Below, piece after piece: positions 11,756 to 22,546 of a stretch of DNA of 34,964 bases. The position numbers and the translations under genes are program-made. The DNA is from an uncultured Eggerthellaceae bacterium. Its GTDB lineage: Bacteria; Actinomycetota; Coriobacteriia; Coriobacteriales; Eggerthellaceae. A model generated the notes under the pieces. The model saw only the letters and a list, made by a program, of their open reading frames with translations. It was not told where the DNA came from and searched no databases. The DNA lies in assembly GCA_949840905.1 (NCBI GenBank), contig CATKXW010000022.1, forward strand, positions 1-34,964, read 5' to 3'. Numbering within the stretch: the stretch's first letter is position 1; every line of letters starts with the position of its first letter.

Positions 11756-13450
11756 ATGCTCGAGACCATCGATCTCTCGCTTCCCAAGATGAAAAAAGAA
11801 GACTACAGAGCACAACGCGATGCGCTGGTGGACGAGCTGGTGGTGCTACAGCAGCAGGCGCACGAGCGCGGGGTGGGCCTGGTGGTGCTGTTCGAGGGAT
11901 GGGATGGTGCCGGTAAGGGCAGCCGCATCTCCGATCTGATGTACAAACTGGATGCGCGCGCCACCGCCGTGCACGTGACCGAGAACCTCGATACGAAGGC
12001 GCTGCGCGATTTCGCCGGGCTGAAGCATGGCGTGACGGGGATGCATCCGCTCATGCAGGAGTTCTGGCAGGCGCTGGGCATGCGTGGCACCATCACGTTC
12101 TATGATCGCGGTTGGTACACCACTGCTGTGCAGTACATGATGTTCGCCGAGAAGGAGGAGCATCAGGATGCCCTGTTCGCGCGCGAGAAGCTTCAGCAGT
12201 ATCTGGCTGAGGCGGCCGATTTCGAGAAGCAGCTCGTCGACGATGGCTACATCGTGGTGAAGTTCTTCGTGCACGTGACCAAAGAGGCGCAGCGCGACCG
12301 GCTGAAACGATTGCATGACGATCCGGCCACCCGCTGGCGCGTGAGCGAGCGGAAGCTGGGTAGCTGGAAGGACTACGAGCAGGCGTATCGGCTCTACGAC
12401 AATCTCCTGGAAGGGAGCGACTTCGCGTACGCGCCCTGGCAGGTGCTCAACGGCGAGGACAAGCGCAGCGCGAACCTCGCGATCGTGCGCACGCTGGTGG
12501 AGCGACTGCGCGAGGCGTTGGCGGCAGGGGAGGACCCGGCCGAGGCGGCGGCACGGGCGGCGGCCAGCGCGAACTCCGCGAAAGCGACCGTGAAGGGACA
12601 GCAAGGATCGGACGCTGCCGATGCCGAGGCGCACGTACAGGTCGATGCCGAAGCGCATGCGCAGGCCGCAGCCGAAGCCGCTGCCGCCCATGCACAAGCT
12701 CCGAAAGCATCGCGCTTCGCGATGGCGGTCGATGCGCCGCGCGTGGCCGAGATCCGACATGACCTGGTTCTCTCGCGCGAGGACTACAGAAAGCAGCTCA
12801 AGCGCGAGCAGAAGCGCTTCAACGCGTTGGAGATGCGCATGTACCAAGAGCGCGTGCCGCTCATGCTGGTCTACGAAGGTTGGGACGCCGCCGGCAAGGG
12901 CGGCTCGATCAAGCGCGTGGCCCAGGCGATCGACGCGCGCGCCTACACCATCTTCCCCTCGCCTGCGCCCACCAAGCCCGAGCTGCTGCATCCGTTTTTG
13001 TGGCGCTACTGGACGCGGCTGCCGAAGGCGGGGCACGTGGGCATATACGATCGCAGCTGGTACGGGCGGGTGCTGGTGGAGCGCGTGGAGGGCTTCGCCA
13101 GCCCGCGTGAATGGTCCCGCGCCTACGACGAGATCAACGAGTTCGAGCGGGACATGGTCTCCTGGGGCGCGCTATTGCTGAAGTTCTGGGTGAACGTGAG
13201 CCCCGAAGAGCAGCTGCGTCGCTTCCAAGAGCGCCAGAACGACCCCATGAAGCAGTGGAAGATCACCGAAGAGGATTGGCGCAATCGCGACAAGTACCCC
13301 CAGTACGAGGCTGCGATCGATGACATGTTCCGCTTGACCTCCACTCCGTTCGCCCCCTGGCGCATCCTCGAGAGCGACGACAAGCTGCATGCGCGCGTGA
13401 AGGCTCTGAAGATCATCAACGAGGCGCTCGAGGAGCGGCTGGGAAAGTAG
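11756..13450 (+). CDS. pap: Tandem-domain PPK2: polyphosphate:AMP (nucleotide) phosphotransferase
   Basis: 564 aa with two PPK2 (P-loop kinase) domains. Domain 1 (~residues 15-260) has FEGWDGAGKGS (~46-56) and the lid/catalytic segment TFYDRGWYTTAV. Domain 2 (~340-560) has YEGWDAAGKGGS (~374-385) and IYDRSWYGRVLVERVEG. An Ala-rich, low-complexity linker joins them (~265-325). Fused two-domain PPK2 proteins (class II) phosphorylate AMP to ADP with polyphosphate, with catalysis usually in the C-terminal domain. Here both Walker A and lid motifs look intact. The open frame extends upstream to 11312, but that part is antisense to ppk1; ATG 11756 follows AAGAGG. The divergent ppk1 supplies the polymer this enzyme would use. 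Confidence 0.92.
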   Translation: MLETIDLSLPKMKKEDYRAQRDALVDELVVLQQQAHERGVGLVVLFEGWDGAGKGSRISDLMYKLDARATAVHVTENLDTKALRDFAGLKHGVTGMHPLMQEFWQALGMRGTITFYDRGWYTTAVQYMMFAEKEEHQDALFAREKLQQYLAEAADFEKQLVDDGYIVVKFFVHVTKEAQRDRLKRLHDDPATRWRVSERKLGSWKDYEQAYRLYDNLLEGSDFAYAPWQVLNGEDKRSANLAIVRTLVERLREALAAGEDPAEAAARAAASANSAKATVKGQQGSDAADAEAHVQVDAEAHAQAAAEAAAAHAQAPKASRFAMAVDAPRVAEIRHDLVLSREDYRKQLKREQKRFNALEMRMYQERVPLMLVYEGWDAAGKGGSIKRVAQAIDARAYTIFPSPAPTKPELLHPFLWRYWTRLPKAGHVGIYDRSWYGRVLVERVEGFASPREWSRAYDEINEFERDMVSWGALLLKFWVNVSPEEQLRRFQERQNDPMKQWKITEEDWRNRDKYPQYEAAIDDMFRLTSTPFAPWRILESDDKLHARVKALKIINEALEERLGK

Positions 13451-13500
13451 CGGGTCGCTGCTCGGTAGGGCGGCAGGAGGCCCGCTTGCGGCGCTCTCTA

Positions 13501-13522
13501 CCCGTCCGGGATGGCGGACGGG
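13501..13522. terminator. GC-rich hairpin between convergent genes
   Basis: CCCGTCCG pairs with CGGACGGG around a 6-nt loop, 50 nt after the PPK2 stop and before the convergent anti-sigma-like gene. No U-run follows on either strand, so it could be a weak or Rho-assisted terminator. The rest of the 216-nt gap shows nothing else I can name. Confidence 0.4.
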
Positions 13523-13666
13523 GTATGATTCCGCTCGGCGCGTCGGACTCGGCGAGCCGATGTCTCGTCGAGTCCTTTGACTTGACCTCGCTCCACCATG
13601 CTTCGCTCACCAGCTTTGCGCTCGCGGTGCTCGCACGCATCAGCGCAGCGGTAATCGGCCCGAAGG

Positions 13667-15529
13667 TCACCTGCGCTCGAGCTTGCCAAGGGAGATGAAC
13701 TCGGCTGTTCGCACGTCTTCTGAGGCGAGCGGTCGCTCGAAGCTGAGGGGATGGCTTGCCGTGAAGAGGACCTCGTCCGCCTGCGCTACGATGTTGTCGG
13801 CGATGAGCACGACGCGCAAGCGTGTTGATTCGCCTGGCCCCAAGGTGAACGACCCTTCGAGGCCATCGCCCCAGATGCGACCTTGGTCGTCCTTGGCACC
13901 GAAGATGCCAGCTGCGGCGAACGTCGTGGTGCCTGCCTGCTCATCCACTGCGCAGAGCGCACCACGGAGGTCCCTTGCGCTGAACATCACCGTTTCGCTC
14001 TCGGCATTGGTGACCGTAGCGTCCATGACGACGAAGGAGTTATCGTCATTCACCCGACCTGTCTCGCTCACCGACCAGTTTCCCGTAGCGAGGCGACAGC
14101 GGTTCATGTAAGCGATGTCGCCTCGGAAGCTGCGTGCGACGGCGCAATCGCTAAGAGGCATATCATCGGGCAGCGTCGAGGATACGAAGGCGGACAGGTC
14201 GGACCATCGCAGGTCGGCCCAGCCGTTGCGCTCGTAGCTCCATTGACCATTGGGAAAGCTCTCGTTGGGACGGCGGACATTGCTCTCCGAAGGGACGCCT
14301 TCGATGGTGATGAGCTTCTTCACGGGACCTAGGCTCTCTTCGAGGGTCGTGACGTAGGGTTCTAAGGGTTCGTTCATCCGGGCGTTCGCGCCGTCAAGAG
14401 AGAAGGGGTGCGGCTCGCTGGTGATCGCGGACACTTCGCCGTAGAGCGTCTTGATAGTGAACTCCACAGGATGCTGGTCGTCGACGAGGCTGTTCTCGAA
14501 GTCGCTCGGAAGGATATCGAAAGGACCTTCTGCGACGACCGAGTCAAGGTTGTCGGGAATGGCATCGAGCGGCAGTGCCCATGAGAACCAGCCATCATGG
14601 AGCGTGAAGGTCTGGGTGCGGAACGTGCCGTCGGTGAACTGCGTGGTGAGCACGAGTTCTTCGCCATCGAGCTCGAACAGGTTCGGGGAACCGTTCGCGA
14701 GCGCGCTCACGTCGTCGTTGCTGAACCAGAAGCCGAGCGTGAGAGGCTCGCCCTCGTAAGGAATGTCGATGGTGGGGCCGAGGAGCTTTATGGCGTGCAC
14801 TTGCACAGGGTCGTCCACTTTGATGGTCTCGGCGTAAGGCGTGACGAATACGTAATCGTAGTCGCGGTAATAAGCGCCCGTGCCACGCTTCTCTGCGCTC
14901 CAATCAAGGGCTTCGTCCAGTTTGGCGGATCGTTCGGGGTCCGTGGCGGCGATAAGCGTTTCGGTGGTCGCTCGGTAGAGCTCGCCGCGACTGAGGGTAG
15001 CCTGGATGCGCTCGATGCCCTCACCGCCGACGGTGAACTGCATGGGCGTGCAATAGCCGCCAGCCCACCAACTCCATCCATTACGAGAACCCAGCTGCGT
15101 GTCGAGGGCGAAGGGGATGATGCCGGTGTCGAGGTCGGCGGTCAAGAGGTTGGGGGTCTTGGCGTAGGCGCGGGCTTGGACGGCATTGAGGGGCGATCCA
15201 GCAGAGAGGAATGTCGAGCCGGCGCTGAACAGGACCAGCAGGGCCATGAGGCAGGCGGCTACGGGCATGAGCCAGCGGGGGCGTCGGGAAGGGCGTCTCT
15301 GTGGCTCACATGGTTTCGGTTGCTGGGTGCGTGCGGGTTGCTCAGGTTGGTATGGTGTGAGAAGCGCGGTGCCTTCCGCTCCCTTTGATCTCGCACTGGT
15401 GCGGGCGCTCCGGTCACCTTGGGCGTGCTCCACGAGGGCGTGGGTGGCCTCCACCAGAGCTACCGGTGCTTGCTCGCGCTTCTGGGCGGCACGGTAGCGT
15501 TCAGCGAAATCGCGTTCTAACAGGGGCAT
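13667..15529 (-). CDS. ECF-coupled transmembrane protein, putative anti-sigma factor/sensor
   Basis: 620 aa. An N-terminal ~75-residue cytoplasmic part is followed by a polybasic stretch and one membrane helix (~residues 86-110: WLMPVAACLMALLVLFSAG). The remaining ~510 residues are extracytoplasmic, beta-rich and unfamiliar. The start codon at 15529 overlaps the end of the ECF sigma gene by 13 nt, so the two are translationally coupled. This arrangement is typical of sigma/anti-sigma pairs with a single-pass membrane sensor. No ZAS zinc motif (HxxxCxxC) is present in the N-domain, so if it is an anti-sigma factor it belongs to another class. Function is inferred from context. Confidence 0.6.
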   Translation of the reverse strand: MPLLERDFAERYRAAQKREQAPVALVEATHALVEHAQGDRSARTSARSKGAEGTALLTPYQPEQPARTQQPKPCEPQRRPSRRPRWLMPVAACLMALLVLFSAGSTFLSAGSPLNAVQARAYAKTPNLLTADLDTGIIPFALDTQLGSRNGWSWWAGGYCTPMQFTVGGEGIERIQATLSRGELYRATTETLIAATDPERSAKLDEALDWSAEKRGTGAYYRDYDYVFVTPYAETIKVDDPVQVHAIKLLGPTIDIPYEGEPLTLGFWFSNDDVSALANGSPNLFELDGEELVLTTQFTDGTFRTQTFTLHDGWFSWALPLDAIPDNLDSVVAEGPFDILPSDFENSLVDDQHPVEFTIKTLYGEVSAITSEPHPFSLDGANARMNEPLEPYVTTLEESLGPVKKLITIEGVPSESNVRRPNESFPNGQWSYERNGWADLRWSDLSAFVSSTLPDDMPLSDCAVARSFRGDIAYMNRCRLATGNWSVSETGRVNDDNSFVVMDATVTNAESETVMFSARDLRGALCAVDEQAGTTTFAAAGIFGAKDDQGRIWGDGLEGSFTLGPGESTRLRVVLIADNIVAQADEVLFTASHPLSFERPLASEDVRTAEFISLGKLERR

Positions 15530-16038
15530 GGGGCGTCTCCGTTCTGTCGTTCGAGCTCGAGGCGCAGCGCCTGGCGCGCGCGATGAAGGTGGGAGCGCAC
15601 GGTGGCGGGACGTTCGCCGGTGATGCGTGCGATCTCGTCGGTGGAGTAGCCTTCGAAGTAGAAGAGGTGGACGGCGGTGCGCTGGGCCTCCGACAGCGTT
15701 GCGAGCATCTGGTCGAGCTCCAGATCGTGCTCGGGTCCGGGCCGGTCGTCAGCCACTTCGATGTCATCGAGGGTGCAGGTCGGATGCGCTCGTCGCCGTC
15801 GTGCTATCTGAGCGCAGCAGTTGCAGGCGCACCGTAGAAGCCATGCTTTCTGATGTTCGAGACTATTGAAGGTGGGTCGTGCCTTGCAGAGGGCCAAGAA
15901 CGTGTTCTGGAAGGCGTCGGCGGCATCGTGGTCGTTGCGCATGCGCGCGCACGTCAGTCGCCACACCGTGTCGGCCCAGCGGTCGATCGCCTCATCGATG
16001 CTCGCTAGGTCGCATCTTGCGGAAGTTCCGTTCGTCAT
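15517..16038 (-). CDS. ECF (extracytoplasmic function) RNA polymerase sigma factor
   Basis: 173 aa, normal ECF length. Region 2 is visible at ~residues 18-80 (DTVWRLTCARMRNDHDAADAFQNTFLALCKA, then the AWLLRCACN -10 recognition helix). Region 4 is a clear helix-turn-helix at ~120-165 (FYFEGYSTDEIARITGERPATVRSHLHRARQALR). It directs polymerase to a small stress or envelope regulon, held in check by the coupled membrane protein. A strong GGAGGAGG precedes the ATG at 16038. Unusual cysteines (RCACNCC in region 2.4 and CPC at the C-terminus) are worth noting for redox sensing, but that role is speculative. Confidence 0.93.
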   Translation of the reverse strand: MTNGTSARCDLASIDEAIDRWADTVWRLTCARMRNDHDAADAFQNTFLALCKARPTFNSLEHQKAWLLRCACNCCAQIARRRRAHPTCTLDDIEVADDRPGPEHDLELDQMLATLSEAQRTAVHLFYFEGYSTDEIARITGERPATVRSHLHRARQALRLELERQNGDAPCPC

Positions 16039-16057
16039 CCATCCTCCTCCTCGCTCC

Positions 16058-16087
16058 TAACACGCGCGAGGAGGGCGGAATGTTGCA
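16058..16087 (-). promoter_or_regulatory. Candidate ECF-type autoregulatory promoter of the sigma gene
   Basis: On the minus strand, TGCAACA (-35-like) is separated by about 17 nt from CGTGTTA (-10-like) just upstream of the sigma gene. ECF promoters commonly have an AAC-containing -35 and a CGT-containing -10 at this spacing, and ECF genes usually drive themselves. Its upstream edge is 6 nt from the padR-derived repeat at 16094. Confidence 0.4.
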
Positions 16088-16093
16088 GGAGCT

Positions 16094-16215
16094 TTATTCG
16101 TGGGAGCAAACGGGGGTGTTGGGGACCTCGATGCCCAGGGCATAGGAGGCGCATTCGCGCAGCTCCTGGAGCGTGAGCATGCAGCAAGCCAGCGCATCGA
16201 TCCAGCGGCGCAGGC
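16094..16215 (-). pseudogene. Duplicated 3' end of padR (direct repeat, left copy)
   Basis: These 122 nt match 17660-17781 at 114/122 positions with no gaps. They encode the last ~40 codons of the PadR protein, including its stop codon. All 8 differences are transitions, and only two change the protein (Tyr to Cys, Asp to Asn). There is no start or N-terminal part, so it is a gene fragment. It begins 4 nt after the AbiEii stop. With the right copy it brackets the AbiE genes, as att-like repeats would after an insertion into the 3' end of padR. Confidence 0.85.
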
Positions 16216-16219
16216 TTGC

Positions 16220-17032
16220 TCATTCGGAGTCTATCGTCTTGATGAGGTGATCCACCCAGTCGAGCGCACTGTCGAACGGAAGGACGCTCAGGCCTTCAGC
16301 GGCGGCATCGTAGCCAGTCCTCCAATCGCGCCCCTCGACTACGCGGGGCGGCCAGCTCTGCCGCTTTCGATAATCGAAGAGCTTGATGCAGATAGCCTTG
16401 ACCTCGGATAGATCGACGTCTTCTTCCCGGAATATGACCTGGAGATCCACGAGATCATGGACTCGCTCAGAGCCTTCTTCGGTGAGCCCATGGAGCTTCT
16501 GCGCAACCTGATAGGGCAATCTCATGAAAGGGATCGGGCGAAGTGGCGGGAACCCGAGCTTCTCGAATATCTCGGAGGCTTCTACAGGAAACAGCTCGTC
16601 CGCTTCTTCGGCATCTCCGAGTTCATTGTGGCCGACCTCTAGCGGAACGGTGATCCAGGATTTGCCGTTATAGGAGAGCTTCACCTCGTACGGCTGCATG
16701 ATGTATACGTGAGGTACGTCTTCCGGTGCTGCCCGCCGTCCTTTTACGAGTTTGCCAGTGAACCCGTGCCATCCTTCCAGCAGCGCCCCCTCGAGCGCAT
16801 CCGCATATTCTTCGATGTCCGACAGGCGTGCGGCATCGAGGTCCTTCGAGAATCTGGTGACGGCATTTCCGAAGCGTAGCTTGAGGGAGCTTCCCCCTTT
16901 GATGGCGCCATCAGGTAGCAGTTGACCTACTATCGCATTCGCCATCAGGCGACGTATCCTGACGGCGTTGTCGGTCGAATCGGCGACGCGCTCTATCGCG
17001 ATGTCGAGGTTCCTTCTACTGTTGGGCCGCAT
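16220..17032 (-). CDS. abiEii: AbiEii/AbiGii-family nucleotidyltransferase toxin (type IV TA)
   Basis: 270 aa. AbiEii toxins are DNA-polymerase-beta-like nucleotidyltransferases that modify nucleotide or RNA targets and cause growth arrest during phage infection. Visible hallmarks are an N-terminal KGGSSLKLRFG (the G-S nucleotidyltransferase motif), TRFSKDLDAARL (the D-x-D-like metal site), an LPYQVAQKLHGL helix with the conserved Lys, and RVHDLVDLQVI. The start overlaps the antitoxin stop as TGATG, as expected for a co-translated TA pair. The length fits the family (~270-300). Confidence 0.88.
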   Translation of the reverse strand: MRPNSRRNLDIAIERVADSTDNAVRIRRLMANAIVGQLLPDGAIKGGSSLKLRFGNAVTRFSKDLDAARLSDIEEYADALEGALLEGWHGFTGKLVKGRRAAPEDVPHVYIMQPYEVKLSYNGKSWITVPLEVGHNELGDAEEADELFPVEASEIFEKLGFPPLRPIPFMRLPYQVAQKLHGLTEEGSERVHDLVDLQVIFREEDVDLSEVKAICIKLFDYRKRQSWPPRVVEGRDWRTGYDAAAEGLSVLPFDSALDWVDHLIKTIDSE

Positions 17033-17556
17033 CAGATCAATTCCTTTTTCAGACGGTCATGCTCGTCTTTGGTGATCAGCCCTTCGGCTCGTGCGTCGTC
17101 TGCGGCACCCTTCAGTCGTTCCAGCATCACGGTTCCTTTGCATTCCAAGATGGCTTCGACGATGCTCTGGGAAGGGATGCCCTCATAATGGGTCATCCCT
17201 CCGTCCGTCACCACGATGGGTCGTACCCAGTCGGGGAGCTTCTTCCGTACTCTTTTCGTGGTGCCGACAGTGAGGCGACTCGGGTTCGCAAGGGCCAGGC
17301 CATGCATCGCGAGCACCGATTCGCCGAAGAGGAAGCTGCCCTTCCCGACGAGCGCTACCGCTTCAGCGTATCGATCGTATTCCGTGGGTGCGTAACGAGC
17401 GAGCTTGTACACCCCATGCCCCCGTTTCAGAAGCTTTCCGATGTCCACCCATCGCTTCAGCTCGGATCTTGTTATGCCGGCCTCTCTTGCTTCGGCGGTA
17501 GTGATCAGGCCGTGATCGTCGGCGGCGATCTCATATATCTCATCGAAATGGGTCAT
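17032..17556 (-). CDS. abiEi: AbiEi-type antitoxin / winged-helix transcriptional repressor
   Basis: 174 aa. The N-terminal winged-helix (AbiEi_4 type, ~residues 5-55) reads DDHGLITTAEAREAGITRSELKRWVDIGKLLKRGHGVYKL. The rest is the usual AbiEi C-terminal antitoxin domain with LFGESVLAMHGL and MTHYEGIPSQSIVEAIL. In AbiE systems this protein represses its own operon and antagonises AbiEii without the stable complex seen in type II systems. No Shine-Dalgarno sequence precedes the ATG at 17556; the operator-like repeat abuts the start codon, so initiation may be near-leaderless. Confidence 0.9.
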   Translation of the reverse strand: MTHFDEIYEIAADDHGLITTAEAREAGITRSELKRWVDIGKLLKRGHGVYKLARYAPTEYDRYAEAVALVGKGSFLFGESVLAMHGLALANPSRLTVGTTKRVRKKLPDWVRPIVVTDGGMTHYEGIPSQSIVEAILECKGTVMLERLKGAADDARAEGLITKDEHDRLKKELI

Positions 17557-17590
17557 GTCAAAAGGTTACCATTTTCGTATACCTTTTGAC
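17557..17590. promoter_or_regulatory. Inverted-repeat operator of abiE
   Basis: Perfect 10-bp arms GTCAAAAGGT (17557-17566) and ACCTTTTGAC (17581-17590) are separated by 14 nt, directly abutting the abiEi start codon. A minus-strand TATACG lies between the arms and may be the -10. AbiEi proteins are known to bind inverted repeats in their own promoter, so this is the probable autorepression site. Confidence 0.75.
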
Positions 17591-17659
17591 AATGAGCGTG
17601 TTACGCTGTCCTTGATCTCGAGAGGCTTCGAGGGAGGATGGATCGCTCGTGAGCACAGG

Positions 17660-17781
17660 TTATTCGTGGGAGCAAACGGGGGTGTCGGGGACCTCGATGC
17701 CTAAGGCATAGGAGGCGCATTCGCGCAGCTCTTGGAGCGTGAGCATGTAACAAGCCAGCGCATCGATCCAACGGCGTAGGC
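17660..17781 (-). repeat. Right copy of the 122-bp direct repeat (3' end of intact padR)
   Basis: This is the counterpart of 16094-16215 (114/122 identical), located inside the intact padR gene and ending at its stop codon. The two copies lie in direct orientation with a 1,566-nt offset. Only the AbiE pair and its promoter region lie between them. Confidence 0.9.
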
Positions 17782-18094
17782 AATTACGACCCTTGTCGGT
17801 GAGCGAGAACAGGCGCTTGGCGCTGCCTTGTTGGGGGGTGTCCCATACGCTGGTGACCAAGCCGGACTCCTCCATGCGCTTGAGCGCGCGATAGATGCCG
17901 GTGGCGTCGGGCTTCTGACCGCCGAACATGGGTGACTGGGCCGCTTGCTGCACGATCACGTAGCCGTGCAGAGGCTCATCGGATTGGGCGAGCAGCGTGA
18001 GGATGGTGGGCTGCGACAGGCGATTCAGCGACTTGCCCAGCTCGGCGCATTCCTTCAGATCCTCTTCCGATTTCGGATGGCAGCTGCTCCACAT
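17660..18094 (-). CDS. PadR-family transcriptional regulator
   Basis: 144 aa. The winged-helix PadR domain spans ~residues 25-105: LSQPTILTLLAQSDEPLHGYVIVQQ, then DATGIYRALKRMEESGLVTSVWD (recognition helix and wing), then KRLFSLTDKGRNCLRRWI. The short helical tail resembles the dimerisation region of small PadR proteins. PadR repressors control detoxification, efflux or metabolism genes in response to small ligands; the target here is unclear. It lies downstream of citrate synthase on the same strand. Its 3' end is duplicated on the far side of the AbiE genes, so the current C-terminus may be either the native or an incoming version. Confidence 0.9.
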   Translation of the reverse strand: MWSSCHPKSEEDLKECAELGKSLNRLSQPTILTLLAQSDEPLHGYVIVQQAAQSPMFGGQKPDATGIYRALKRMEESGLVTSVWDTPQQGSAKRLFSLTDKGRNCLRRWIDALACYMLTLQELRECASYALGIEVPDTPVCSHE

Positions 18095-18157
18095 GTGTCG
18101 GCCTCTTTCGTCAGGGCTTTCGGTATCTCTGCCTATATTATCATGCTGCCACTATTG

Positions 18158-18172
18158 TCGTTGACGCAACGA
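18158..18172. promoter_or_regulatory. Perfect palindrome upstream of padR, candidate operator
   Basis: TCGTTG-ACG-CAACGA, 6-bp arms with a 3-nt centre, 64 nt upstream of the padR start. A minus-strand GATAAT (-10-like) lies between it and the gene. It could be an operator for PadR itself or another regulator. It does not match the ATGT-N8-ACAT site best known for PadR. Confidence 0.35.
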
Positions 18173-18233
18173 AAGCCGCACGGTGAAGGGCGCACGGGCT
18201 GGTCGCTGTCGTGCGGGGGAGGGCTTCAGCAGG

Positions 18234-19607
18234 TCAGGCGCGATCAGCGAGGGGAAGGTAGGCCCGGAGGGCATCGTCGCCGACGCGGGTGTTCTTGTAG
18301 GCGGGGCGCATGATGCGCTTGCCGCTCACCACCTCCTCGAAGCGATGGGCCGCCCAGCCGGCCATGCGGGCGCAGGCGAACAGCGGGGTGTAGAGCTCTT
18401 CGGGGATGCCCATCATGGAATACACGAAGCCCGAGTACATGTCCACGTTCGCGCACATGTCCTTGGCGATGCCGCGCTCGGCCAAGATGGCGGGCGAGAG
18501 ACGCTCGATGGTCTCCAACAGGCGGAACTCCGCCTCGAACTCGGTTCCTTGGGCGAGCCGTTCGGCGAAGCGCTTGCCGATGACGGCGCGCGGGTCGCTC
18601 TTGGTGTACACGGCATGCCCCATGCCGTAGATGAGCCCCGTGCCGTCGTAGGCTTCCTTGTTCGCGATGCGGGCGAGATAGGCCGCGACCTCGTCTTCGT
18701 TGCTCCAATCGCTCACGTTCTGCTTGATCTCGGCCTGCATGGCGCGCACTTGGTGGTTCGCGCCACCGTGGCGCCGGCCTTTCAGCGAGCCGATGGAGGC
18801 GGCGTAGGTAGAGTAGGGGTCGGTGTCGGCCGAAGACAGCACGCGCGTGGTGAACGTGGAGTTATTGCCACCGCCGTGCTCGGCGTGCACGCACAGCATG
18901 ATGTCGAGCATGCGAGCCTCTTCCGGCGTGAAGGCGCGGTCGGGCCGCAGCATGGAGAGGATGGTCTCGGCGGTGGACTGCCCTTCGATGAAGCGATGCA
19001 TGATCATCGAACCGTGGTCGTAGCGGGCCAGCTTGGCGTAGTAGCCCAGCACCATGATGCGAGGCAGTCGCGAGAGCAGCGAGAGCGCCGTGTGTATCTC
19101 GTGCTCGGCGGTGCGTTCTTCGGCGTCGTCGTCGAAGGCGTACAGCTGCAGGATGGCGCGGGCGATGAGATTCATCAGGTCGCGGGGCGTCTCGCGCATG
19201 AGGATGCGGGCGGTGAAGCCGTCGGGCAGCTCGCGTTGGGAGTCGATCACGCCGATGAAGCTTTCCAGCTGCGCAGGGGTGGGCAGCTCCCCCATCAACA
19301 GCAGATAGCTCACCTCTTCGAAGCTGAACCGTCGCTGCTCGCTGGGGTCGCCCAGCAGGTCGTATAGGTCATAGCCGCGGTAGCGCAGAGAGCCTTCATC
19401 GGGCACTTTCGTGCCGTCGACCATGCGGTAGCCATACACATCGGCGATGTTGGTGAGGCCTACCACCACGCCGGTCCCATCGGCATTGCGCAGTCCTCGC
19501 TTCACGTCGAAGCGATCGTATTGCGCCCGCTCGATGGTGTTCACCTCGCGAAAGTTATGGAACAGCCCAGAGCCTTGTATCTCGTTTTCCGTCGTCTCGA
19601 ATGCCAT
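18234..19607 (-). CDS. gltA: Citrate synthase
   Basis: 457 aa. It condenses acetyl-CoA with oxaloacetate, the entry step to citrate and 2-oxoglutarate. Family blocks are present: LRYRGYDLYDLL, EEVSYLLLMGELPT, CVHAEHGGGNNSTFTTRVLSS, SLKGRRHGGANHQV (with the catalytic His) and GMGHAVYTKSDPRA (second catalytic His and oxaloacetate-binding Arg). The ATG at 19607 is preferred because conserved sequence starts just after it and an AAAGG lies upstream; the frame is open to 19769. A 2-methylcitrate synthase role cannot be excluded from sequence. The gap upstream (19608-19874, 267 nt) holds its promoter and that of the divergent small ORF; a minus-strand TATCAT is visible without a good -35. Confidence 0.94.
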   Translation of the reverse strand: MAFETTENEIQGSGLFHNFREVNTIERAQYDRFDVKRGLRNADGTGVVVGLTNIADVYGYRMVDGTKVPDEGSLRYRGYDLYDLLGDPSEQRRFSFEEVSYLLLMGELPTPAQLESFIGVIDSQRELPDGFTARILMRETPRDLMNLIARAILQLYAFDDDAEERTAEHEIHTALSLLSRLPRIMVLGYYAKLARYDHGSMIMHRFIEGQSTAETILSMLRPDRAFTPEEARMLDIMLCVHAEHGGGNNSTFTTRVLSSADTDPYSTYAASIGSLKGRRHGGANHQVRAMQAEIKQNVSDWSNEDEVAAYLARIANKEAYDGTGLIYGMGHAVYTKSDPRAVIGKRFAERLAQGTEFEAEFRLLETIERLSPAILAERGIAKDMCANVDMYSGFVYSMMGIPEELYTPLFACARMAGWAAHRFEEVVSGKRIMRPAYKNTRVGDDALRAYLPLADRA

Positions 19608-19809
19608 GGATGCCGTGCCTTTCTGTGCGTGTATTCCTCTAATGATAAAGGTTCGCAGGCCTCGCACCATGACAGAAGGTCTCGCTCCATGGGTTTTCGG
19701 CGGTGAAGGTGAGCGTTTGTTGGCCAGCATGTTGCGGAAAGATGCCTTACTGGTCGTTTTCGTGGACACGCAGCCATAAGATTCGCTGCGGGGTCCGGCC
19801 AGTGTTCGA

Positions 19810-19853
19810 CTCGCACCGAATAGGCGAGGTGCCCAGCGTTATAGTGGTGCGAG
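19810..19853. promoter_or_regulatory. Inverted repeat around the -10 of the 61-aa ORF
   Basis: CTCGCACC (19810-19817) and GGTGCGAG (19846-19853) are perfect 8-bp arms 28 nt apart. The hexamer TATAGT (19840-19845) lies just inside the right arm. The arrangement suggests an operator or a looped promoter. No good -35 is visible. Confidence 0.35.
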
Positions 19854-19874
19854 CGAGAGAGGAGAGGTTAGATC

Positions 19875-20060
19875 ATGGCTCGGATCGATGTGGACGCGTT
19901 GCGCGCGTACCTGATGGATCGCTGCGGTACCGCCGCGTTCAACGGCTTCCCTGCAGCTATCGTGGATATGTGGGATGTCGAGAGCGCGACCGGAGAAGAG
20001 CTCTGCCGCAAAGCTGAACAGCTCGGCATCGACCTGCGCCGATTCGTGGTGGGCGGATGA
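19875..20060 (+). CDS. Small protein of unknown function (61 aa)
   Basis: ATG 19875 follows GAGAGGAGAGG at good spacing. The product begins MARIDVDALRAYLMDRCGTA, continues NGFPAAIVDMWDVESATGEELCRKAEQLGIDLRRF and ends VVGG. It is compact, acidic and probably helical; periodic hydrophobics and biased third positions support real coding. It has no membrane segment or recognised motif. I cannot assign a function. It is divergent from citrate synthase. Confidence 0.75.
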   Translation: MARIDVDALRAYLMDRCGTAAFNGFPAAIVDMWDVESATGEELCRKAEQLGIDLRRFVVGG

Positions 20061-20182
20061 CATAGGGCGCTCGACCTTTTGCTGAAGGCGCTCGCGGGGG
20101 CTTCCTGCGAATGAGGTGCGAATGGTCCTGATCGAGCTCTCTTTGGCTGGCGCATATCACCGATGCGGCAGCATTAGCGGCT

Positions 20183-20332
20183 ATGTTGGAATCGGAGCTT
20201 CTCTCTATCCAGGGTATTAGGGTGGGAAAGGTGGAGAAGATAAGGAAGGCTCTCGAATCGTTCGACCTGACGCTCGCTCTGAAAGAGGAAGAAGACCGGA
20301 TCGATCCGGACCCCATCGCGCTCAGCGTATAG
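20183..20332 (+). pseudogene. Short ORF (49 aa), in frame with the next gene across a TAG; possible decayed gene
   Basis: It begins MLESELLSIQGIRVGKVEK and ends DPDPIALSV-stop; the frame is open from 20132. The next ORF (20342) is in the same frame, separated only by TAG AAG GGG GTC. Read together, the two would form one ~135-residue polypeptide with a single in-frame stop. It lacks a visible ribosome binding site. Either it is a real short gene coupled to the next, or both are remnants of a longer protein whose N-terminus is lost. Confidence 0.4.
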
Positions 20333-20341
20333 AAGGGGGTC

Positions 20342-20542
20342 ATGCTCTTTTGCAAAACGCCCGGTTGGTTCTCTTCGGTCGATGTTGTGGAGCGAGCGAT
20401 CGTCCAGAATGGCGCTATGAGCATCGCCGAGCTGTGGGCGGCCCTGAGCGAGGAGTATGGGGTGGATATTCCGCCCGCGAAGCTGCGTTCCATCGTGAAG
20501 CGTGCGAGCTTGCGGCTCGAAGACGATATCGTTTCGCTCTAG
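20342..20542 (+). CDS. Small putative helix-turn-helix-like protein (66 aa)
   Basis: ATG 20342 is preceded by GAAGGGGG at 5-nt spacing. Residues ~13-60 read VDVVERAIVQNGAMSIAELW, then EEYGVDIPPAKLRSIVKRA. This is a helix pattern reminiscent of a winged or HARE-type HTH module at the end of a larger protein. I do not recognise a full family. It lies 138 nt upstream of the Mrr-like nuclease on the same strand and may be co-transcribed with it, or may be a relic as described for the previous ORF. Confidence 0.5.
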   Translation: MLFCKTPGWFSSVDVVERAIVQNGAMSIAELWAALSEEYGVDIPPAKLRSIVKRASLRLEDDIVSL

Positions 20543-20680
20543 TCGATCCATATGCCAGCGAGTGCATGAGGAGGGTGAGGGGGCCTTCGATCCGGTCGAT
20601 GATCTTAGCTGGTGGAAGCTTTGGTGTCGTGCTAGGCTTGATCGTGCGAAGTTATCGATGGCCGTCTTTGGAGAAAGCCC

Positions 20681-22546
20681 GTGGAAGACAGATTCGCTGT
20701 GCTCAGAACCGCTGCTGAGGTCTCGGACCTCAAGGGCCTCGCGTTCGAGGAATACCTGTGCCAGCTCTTTGACGACCTGGGCTATGAGGCGGAGAAGACC
20801 CAGGCGTCGCGGGACGGTGGGGCCGATCTGGTCCTTGAGCGGCACGGCAAGAAGATAGTCGTGCAGGCGAAGTCGTACAAGAAGGCGGTCGGCTACGACG
20901 CGGTGAAGGAGGTGCACGCTGCCCGCAGCTTGGAGGGGGCCGATGAGGCGTGGGTCATCGCGACCAGTCGGTTCACGCCGGATGCGAAACAGCGGGCTGA
21001 CGAGCTCGATATACGGCTCATCGGCGGCAAGGGGTTAGAGGCACTGATCGAGAAGGCCTGCGCTCTGCGGCCGCGCACGTTCGATCCAGTGCGCCGGCGC
21101 ACCTTCGCCAACGATGGCATCTTCGGCGTCGGCAGCCGAGGAAGGATGCGCGCGGTGCCCAGCGTCATGGGCGCGGTGAGCGCGACCGTGCGGGGCTCTC
21201 GCATCCGGATGCGCAAGCTGGGCCTGTGGGAGCGCACCCAGCGGGCGGTCGACTACTCCTTTCTGCTCCCCGATTGCTGGCTGAACGGCCTGAACAAGAC
21301 CGAGCGCAGCAGAAGGATGCTCTTGGCCATCGCCTCTGTCCTGATGGCGACGCCGAAAGGCTCTATGACCGCGGAAGCCGTGCGGTGCCAGATGCCCGCA
21401 ACGGTGTCGATGGACGAGCTGCTCTACGTGCTGCGGACGGTGCCGCTGTTCAAGGCCGCGCCCTCGACGGCAGCGGGCCACAACGGCGCGACGGAGCGCT
21501 ACGCGTTGGATCGCGATCTCATCATGAGCTGTTACGACGAGTCTTACGGCAAGCTCGACATCTCCATGGCGCTGCTGATAGAGGCCATCGAGGGCCTTCC
21601 TGGCAGCGCTCTGACCGTCGTCGATGGGGAGAAGATGGTCCCGCGCACCTATGCGCATGCGGATCAGCTGGACGACGATGTGCTCGCGCGAGCAGTGATG
21701 CTGGGCTATGTGGTGGCCTACGCCTATCCCGACCGGACGGTATACGTGCCCTCCCAGAACAAGGCGCTCCTCGTTCAGCAGAGCAACGGCGGTCCGCCCC
21801 CACCGGCGCTCGAAGAGGTAAAGGAGCGGACATACCTCGCTTTCTCCGAGGCGGAGCAGGAGCATGCGGCGAGCCCGTCGTGGGACATCGCTTTGCGCTA
21901 CCACGAGCACGTCACGGCGCTCTACGAGCGGTTCTGCACCGATGACCAGGGACTGCTGGGTCTCTGCTATCGGGCCCTCTACGAATCGGGCGGCGGCTTC
22001 ACCGACCACGAGGTGGCCGAGTACATCGCCACGATCCAGGGCATTCCCTGCACCCCCGAAAACGTCGGTAGCCTGCGCGAGGATTGCCTGGAGAACGATG
22101 GTCTTATAGCGAAGGTGGCAGAGCCTGGCGCGAACGGCTGCCCACCGCGGTATTTCCTCGCCTTCCAGGTGGGCATAGATGGCGAGTTCTTGGAAGATCA
22201 TGTGGCACGGAGCCAGATGTTGCAGGCTCAGAGCGATTTTCTGATGGCGAACATGGAGCTGCTCTCGTCGGCGCCCAATGACTTGGTGGCTGGTCTCGCC
22301 CAGCAGCACGCCCAGCTGAGCAGCATTCTGGAGGCGAAGGCGTACGTCGGTCGAGATCAAAAGCGTCAGCTGCAGCAGAGCATCTCGTTCATCGAGGGGC
22401 AACTGAACGAGAACCAGCGTCTCGATGCAGAGATGCGCCAACGCGCTTTCGCGGCTCTTTCGGAAGATATGAGCCGCAAGCAGGCGGAACTACAGCAGAT
22501 AGTGCCTCGTTGCGATGGTGACAAGTGGCGCTTCCGCTTGACGTGA
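20681..22546 (+). CDS. Mrr-like (type IV restriction-like) endonuclease with a large uncharacterised C-terminal region
   Basis: 621 aa. It starts at GTG 20681 with GGAG 7 nt upstream. Residues ~18-125 are an Mrr_cat PD-(D/E)xK nuclease: LKGLAFEEYLCQLFDDLGY (conserved Glu), DGGADLVLE (Asp 49), QAK (Gln62-x-Lys64), then AWVIATSRFTPDAKQRADELDIRLIGG. Such domains cut modified or foreign DNA and often act alone, without a methyltransferase. None is seen nearby. Residues ~200-500 match nothing I recognise. Residues ~510-605 are a long, Gln/Glu-rich coiled coil. A role in defence is likely from the nuclease fold, but the trigger is unknown. Confidence 0.75.
   Translation: MEDRFAVLRTAAEVSDLKGLAFEEYLCQLFDDLGYEAEKTQASRDGGADLVLERHGKKIVVQAKSYKKAVGYDAVKEVHAARSLEGADEAWVIATSRFTPDAKQRADELDIRLIGGKGLEALIEKACALRPRTFDPVRRRTFANDGIFGVGSRGRMRAVPSVMGAVSATVRGSRIRMRKLGLWERTQRAVDYSFLLPDCWLNGLNKTERSRRMLLAIASVLMATPKGSMTAEAVRCQMPATVSMDELLYVLRTVPLFKAAPSTAAGHNGATERYALDRDLIMSCYDESYGKLDISMALLIEAIEGLPGSALTVVDGEKMVPRTYAHADQLDDDVLARAVMLGYVVAYAYPDRTVYVPSQNKALLVQQSNGGPPPPALEEVKERTYLAFSEAEQEHAASPSWDIALRYHEHVTALYERFCTDDQGLLGLCYRALYESGGGFTDHEVAEYIATIQGIPCTPENVGSLREDCLENDGLIAKVAEPGANGCPPRYFLAFQVGIDGEFLEDHVARSQMLQAQSDFLMANMELLSSAPNDLVAGLAQQHAQLSSILEAKAYVGRDQKRQLQQSISFIEGQLNENQRLDAEMRQRAFAALSEDMSRKQAELQQIVPRCDGDKWRFRLT

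Follow-up and report, generated by a model that had tools for sequence, protein, structure and literature searches.

We find that an AbiE toxin-antitoxin operon in an Eggerthellaceae genome (1.98 Mb, 44 contigs) sits alone between two direct copies of the 3' end of a padR-family regulator gene, and we consider this locus to be probably a minimal, integrase-less integrative cassette of a CIME-like kind, whose movement would depend on a recombinase supplied in trans. The features of the locus are listed below by their positions in the window, that is, the whole stretch of 34,964 nucleotides that was analysed.

18234..19769, minus strand: citrate synthase gene, native flank upstream of padR (PF00285, 8.4e-105)
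17660..18094, minus strand: padR-family regulator gene, intact, the insertion target (PF03551, 3.3e-14; tblastn relatives)
17660..17781, minus strand: repeat copy 1, attL-like, the last ~40 codons and stop of the intact padR, probably imported (derived base at 6/6 synonymous differences; no amino-acid change relative to the family)
17557..17659, minus strand: abiE promoter/operator region with an 11-bp perfect inverted repeat (from the sequence)
17032..17556, minus strand: abiEi antitoxin gene, AbiEi_4 (PF13338, 4.1e-11; PADLOC AbiEi, 6.3e-49)
16220..17032, minus strand: abiEii nucleotidyltransferase toxin gene (PF08843, 8.2e-16; PADLOC AbiEii, 4.8e-100)
16094..16215, minus strand: repeat copy 2, attR-like, apparently the displaced native padR 3' end (family's usual synonymous bases kept; Y116C, D137N)
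15517..16038, minus strand: ECF sigma factor gene, native flank downstream of the insertion (PF08281, 3.9e-17)

The two repeat copies, 16094-16215 and 17660-17781, are each 122 nt long, lie at a spacing of 1566 and are identical at 114 of the 122 positions (93.4%), with an E value of 2.5e-49 in self-BLAST; this is the sole long repeat in a scan of positions 12000-22000. The start of the repeat coincides exactly with the padR stop codon. Nothing lies between the copies except abiEi, abiEii and a promoter stretch of 103 bp, and the gap from the abiEii stop to the second repeat copy is 4 bp. The initial annotation had described a direct repeat of the padR 3' end enclosing only the two abiE genes and their promoter, with eight differences that are all transitions, two of them altering the protein; the repeat scan, self-BLAST, Pfam and PADLOC bear out this structure, and the differences divide into six synonymous and two amino-acid changes. 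The span that it had given, 16094-17781, holds for the structure as a whole but not for the limits of the unit, which is 16094-17659 or 16216-17781 because one repeat copy belongs to it. The G+C content of the abiE unit is 57%, compared to 61.6% for the window.

The operon consists of an AbiEi antitoxin gene followed by the gene for the AbiEii nucleotidyltransferase, as assigned by both Pfam and PADLOC, and the relatives of AbiEii with solved structures are Rv1045-type toxins, the best of them 6y5u. The arms of the perfect inverted repeat in the promoter (17556-17566 and 17581-17591) are likely to form a candidate site of autoregulation by AbiEi, which has been described as binding inverted repeats of its promoter (PMC7319586). 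Viral contigs bearing padR or this AbiEii were searched for and none was found. The absence of an integrase that had been reported also stands: there are six tyrosine integrase matches in the genome, none of them on the abiE contig, and a Pfam scan of 20 window proteins found no recombinase. Near the AbiE unit, at 20681-22546 of the window, is a gene whose product contains an Mrr-type restriction endonuclease domain (PF04471).

The differences between the two padR ends were polarised against 65 Eggerthellaceae padR relatives found by tblastn, most of which cover the full length at 64-86% identity. In the downstream fragment the base at each of the six synonymous differences is the one usual or commoner in the family, and the intact padR has the rarer one, while at both amino-acid differences (Y116C and D137N) the fragment is the deviant copy; so clean a split between derived synonymous and amino-acid differences is a matter of 1 in 28. 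Similarly, rare synonymous codons make up 7/33 in the end of the intact padR, 9/97 in its 5' part and 3/31 in the fragment. The usual synonymous bases of the fragment, together with its two amino-acid changes, thus mark the fragment as the displaced native end and the end of the intact padR as imported, in agreement with the earlier proposal that the incoming copy came from the functional gene of a related strain. This pattern is as would be expected if the imported end had once been under selection elsewhere and the displaced native fragment were free to decay. The two copies first differ 5 nt into the repeat, and the crossover therefore took place at its 5' edge or ahead of it.

A second copy of the padR 3' end near padR was found in 0 of 64 orthologues with flank up to ~6 kb; neither a relative that lacks abiE and has both repeat copies nor a tandem padR duplication predating abiE was seen in this set. 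The initial annotation had also looked to relatives for an empty padR site, and no empty padR-sigma junction was found when joined flanks were searched for in 138 family genomes; it is for this reason that we infer the insertion at padR itself. The padR neighbourhoods examined in relatives have none of the window's flanking genes (citrate synthase, ECF sigma) in common. In a same-genus contig padR adjoins glmS and larC, so either the gene or its neighbourhood (window 15517-19769) has been rearranged. Neither an integrase among the ORFs downstream of padR (clusters inspected by eye, without a profile) nor a larger element at padR was seen in relatives. One Eggerthellaceae MAG (L058, 4473-7364) has repeats of ~50-114 bp around the padR 3' end with small ORFs between them, possibly another padR insertion.

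AbiE operons are bracketed by direct repeats well beyond this locus. When a uniform rule is applied to the family, 10 of 50 AbiE operons count as bracketed. The figure is 1 of 408 for control windows (non-overlapping, of the same size and drawn from padR loci; p = 1e-9) and 4 of 90 for loci from three other gene families (p = 0.006). The remaining 40 AbiE operons lack tight bracketing. The three other families comprise RelE/ParE (2/30), PIN (1/30) and a GNAT acetyltransferase control (1/30, or 3/30 at a looser threshold). The rates for RelE/ParE and PIN are not clearly above that for GNAT, and we therefore limit the claim to AbiE and do not extend it to other toxin-antitoxin families. Two RelE/ParE-type operons of ~0.75 kb (L263 and L271) each lie alone between repeats of 40-47 bp, and in L271 a PIN-domain (vapC-like) gene supplies the repeat with its 3' end. 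At the AbiE loci examined from the phylum but outside the family, no repeat was seen, and the pattern may be restricted or this sample too distant. The insertion sites of bracketed AbiE operons are tRNA-fMet, the 3' ends of protein genes and intergenic positions, and the repeats range from 32 to 212 bp; those outside the window are as follows.

G086: 45-bp repeat, tRNA-fMet 3' end
G019: 32-bp repeat, internal part of tRNA-fMet, where the contig ends
G112: 46-bp repeat, 3' part of a protein gene
G107: 37-45-bp repeat, intergenic palindromic site
G118: 106-bp repeat, between divergent SMR and MerR genes
G084: 127-bp repeat
G004: 41-bp repeat, second AbiE family (DUF6088 + AbiEii)
G082: 58-bp repeat, second AbiE family (DUF6088 + AbiEii)
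G019: 212-bp repeat, second AbiE family (DUF6088 + AbiEii)

Seven AbiE units of the window type, in seven places, are 1481-1614 bp long, with 4-64 bp on the toxin side, and contain abiE only and no recombinase. The 212-bp repeat in G019 (L204, contig C45, 3812-4022 and 5598-5809) extends over the final bases of abiEii and could be of different origin; the arrangement looks as though an AbiE unit had gone in at the end of a second one, or as though two units had recombined with each other.

Searching for joined flanks in the same 138 genomes revealed both empty and reoccupied sites. The G118 site is empty in G119, with a single repeat copy and 98% identity over a continuous 806 bp, and the G107 site is empty, again with a single copy, in G105 (99%) and G028 (95%), with more distant empty sites at 76-80%. 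The genomes G107 and G004 have a common repeat of ~37 bp at one and the same site, which holds a different AbiE family in each genome; the two families have little similarity in sequence and each stands alone. The idea that other cargo might be found between the same repeats is thus borne out at this one site. Two independent insertions with identical boundaries point to site-specific recombination. G107 and G004 are both single-contig genomes, which rules out an assembly artefact. A transposon with target-site duplication was likewise rejected, since there is no transposase, the duplications measure 32-212 bp and two insertions at one site have identical boundaries.

The G118 locus can also be polarised. 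The two copies differ at three positions, at which the copy after abiEii matches the empty site of G119 and the copy before abiEi does not; the copy before abiEi is therefore the imported one, as at padR. The polarity of insertion is thus well supported by sequence comparison at two loci, the only ones whose repeat copies allow it to be read. At both, the first informative site lies 5-6 nt into the repeat, which is unlike a crossover placed at random along the repeat, and a plain RecA crossover of a homologous circle is disfavoured for this reason. Together, the polarity, the 0/64 duplicated padR ends and the AbiE-only units elsewhere support the proposal of the initial annotation that an element integrated into the 3' end of the gene carrying its own copy of that end.

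The tRNA-fMet attachment site is also used by elements with tyrosine integrases, both in the window's own genome and in G084. The former (L241, G000:C15, 211-3145) measures 2.9 kb, encodes an AAA_14/DUF4143 ATPase as well as a tyrosine integrase, and is flanked by an intact tRNA-fMet and a copy of the tRNA-fMet 3' part; in the latter (L240, G084:C10, 4732-7415), a truncated abiE lies beside a tyrosine integrase within a tRNA-fMet array. The G086 locus (L175, G086:C2, 7847-14057) contains a stack of tRNA-fMet pieces, namely a 5' part, an intact copy in which 8 nt are duplicated internally, and 45-bp, 18-bp and decayed copies of the 3' end, and these stacked 3' ends are a sign of repeated insertion at one site. 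Between two of the tRNA pieces of this stack lies a 0.74-kb unit with one 109-aa peptide resembling a RiPP precursor. Integrase elements at the same site were found for the tRNA-fMet cassettes only, and the recombinase for padR is the weakest link of the cassette reading.

According to that reading, the cassette would consist of one abiE operon with its own promoter and one copy of the attachment region (the last 122 bp of padR), and the recombination of a circle or its equivalent with the padR 3' end would take place at the outermost 5' edge of the repeat. In this way the resident padR would gain an imported functional 3' end and its own end would be displaced beyond abiE. Because the cassette encodes no recombinase, the reaction would probably be carried out in trans by the site-specific (tyrosine) recombinase of another element. 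AbiE would guard the cassette against loss by addiction, because exit through the repeats removes the antitoxin; AbiE has been described as stabilising plasmids and as sitting on ICEs (PMC3985639; PMC11062541), which suggests a possible reason why the repeats have not collapsed. We infer the circular intermediate, the trans-acting recombinase, addiction as the cause of retention and present-day mobility. Repeat lengths of 32-212 bp speak against the cassette, as they are untypical of one recombinase, and several would be needed.

The CIMEs are defined by att-like ends without integration or transfer genes, and are considered to originate by decay of a larger element (PMC5704250). At our locus, attL/attR-like direct repeats are present and integrase and transfer genes between them are absent. 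Known CIMEs, such as the ICESt1-related elements of Streptococcus thermophilus, are similar in having att-like direct repeats on both sides and no integration or transfer genes, and in tandem accretion at a common site; however, they are described as decayed larger elements, whereas the unit here is one toxin-antitoxin operon of 1.5 kb that is found at many sites with the same layout throughout. The corresponding explanation, that a larger ICE, IME or prophage at padR lost everything except its ends and an addiction module, is in our view unlikely. The recognised origin of CIMEs, the tandem att-site remnants at the G086 tRNA-fMet and the occurrence of AbiE on ICEs (PMC3985639) all fit with decay, but independent decay would be expected to leave varied remnants, not seven units of nearly equal length with abiE only and so little on the toxin side, nor two dissimilar AbiE families both alone at one site in two genomes. 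Thus the choice between a minimal mobilised cassette and the remains of a larger element, both raised by the initial annotation, is not settled, with the uniform AbiE-only units of 1.48-1.61 kb favouring the cassette.

Capture driven by homology is, we think, quite unlikely. One side of a donor DNA with a padR end and abiE would have been joined by ordinary homologous recombination and the other side illegitimately, so that part of the target was duplicated, and addiction would have blocked collapse of the repeat. Such capture accounts for the range of repeat lengths, the varied targets, the lack of a recombinase and the constant polarity, in which the copy on the abiEi side is imported; it leaves unexplained the ~37-bp boundaries common to two AbiE families at one site, the repeats ending at tRNA 3' ends and the uniform unit length. 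Finally, a tandem padR duplication whose second copy subsequently lost its 5' part to abiE would give the identical local map, but is highly improbable given that in no relative was a further padR, or a further padR end, seen near the first and that other AbiE cassettes have single-copy empty sites and non-gene repeats.

The cassette reading may be compared with three further kinds of element. In chromosomal integrons, toxin-antitoxin cassettes with a promoter lie between repeats and are moved by a recombinase in trans, much like the abiE unit; unlike integron cassettes, the repeats here are host target sequences that differ from locus to locus, not attC, and there is no array beside an integron integrase. 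An integron gene cassette was rejected because the repeat is padR coding sequence and those of the sibling units consist of tRNA, gene or intergenic sequence of the host. ICEs, IMEs and prophages at tRNA or gene 3' ends similarly swap the 3' end of the target for the element's copy, and the tRNA-fMet site is common to integrase elements and AbiE units, but the abiE unit has no integrase, excisionase, relaxase or replication gene; lacking its own integrase, it was rejected as a member of these classes. The AbiE type IV systems and the related MosAT of the SXT ICE have the same AbiEi/AbiEii bicistronic operon and promoter inverted repeat and are known stabilisers of plasmids and ICEs; their known copies ride on larger mobile elements, whereas here abiE is the whole insert. 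In the literature searched, there was no description of AbiE-only bracketed cassettes, although such an absence is no proof of novelty.

The Eggerthellaceae AbiE operons may form a class of minimal mobile cassettes of ~1.5 kb, made up of the toxin and antitoxin genes only, which would borrow the recombinases of other elements for tRNA, gene-end and intergenic sites, carry their own copy of the target and rely on addiction for retention; we put this forward tentatively. A broader open question is by what route defence and toxin-antitoxin genes come to occupy new positions in the chromosome when no mobility genes are apparent. In these loci the traces can still be read, in the exchanged end of a gene, in the empty sites of relatives and in a site that two toxin-antitoxin families have used. 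Being short enough for PCR, the loci lend themselves to testing whether a toxin-antitoxin operon with nothing else can move as a unit by means of another element's integrase, and whether addiction preserves direct repeats that would otherwise be unstable.
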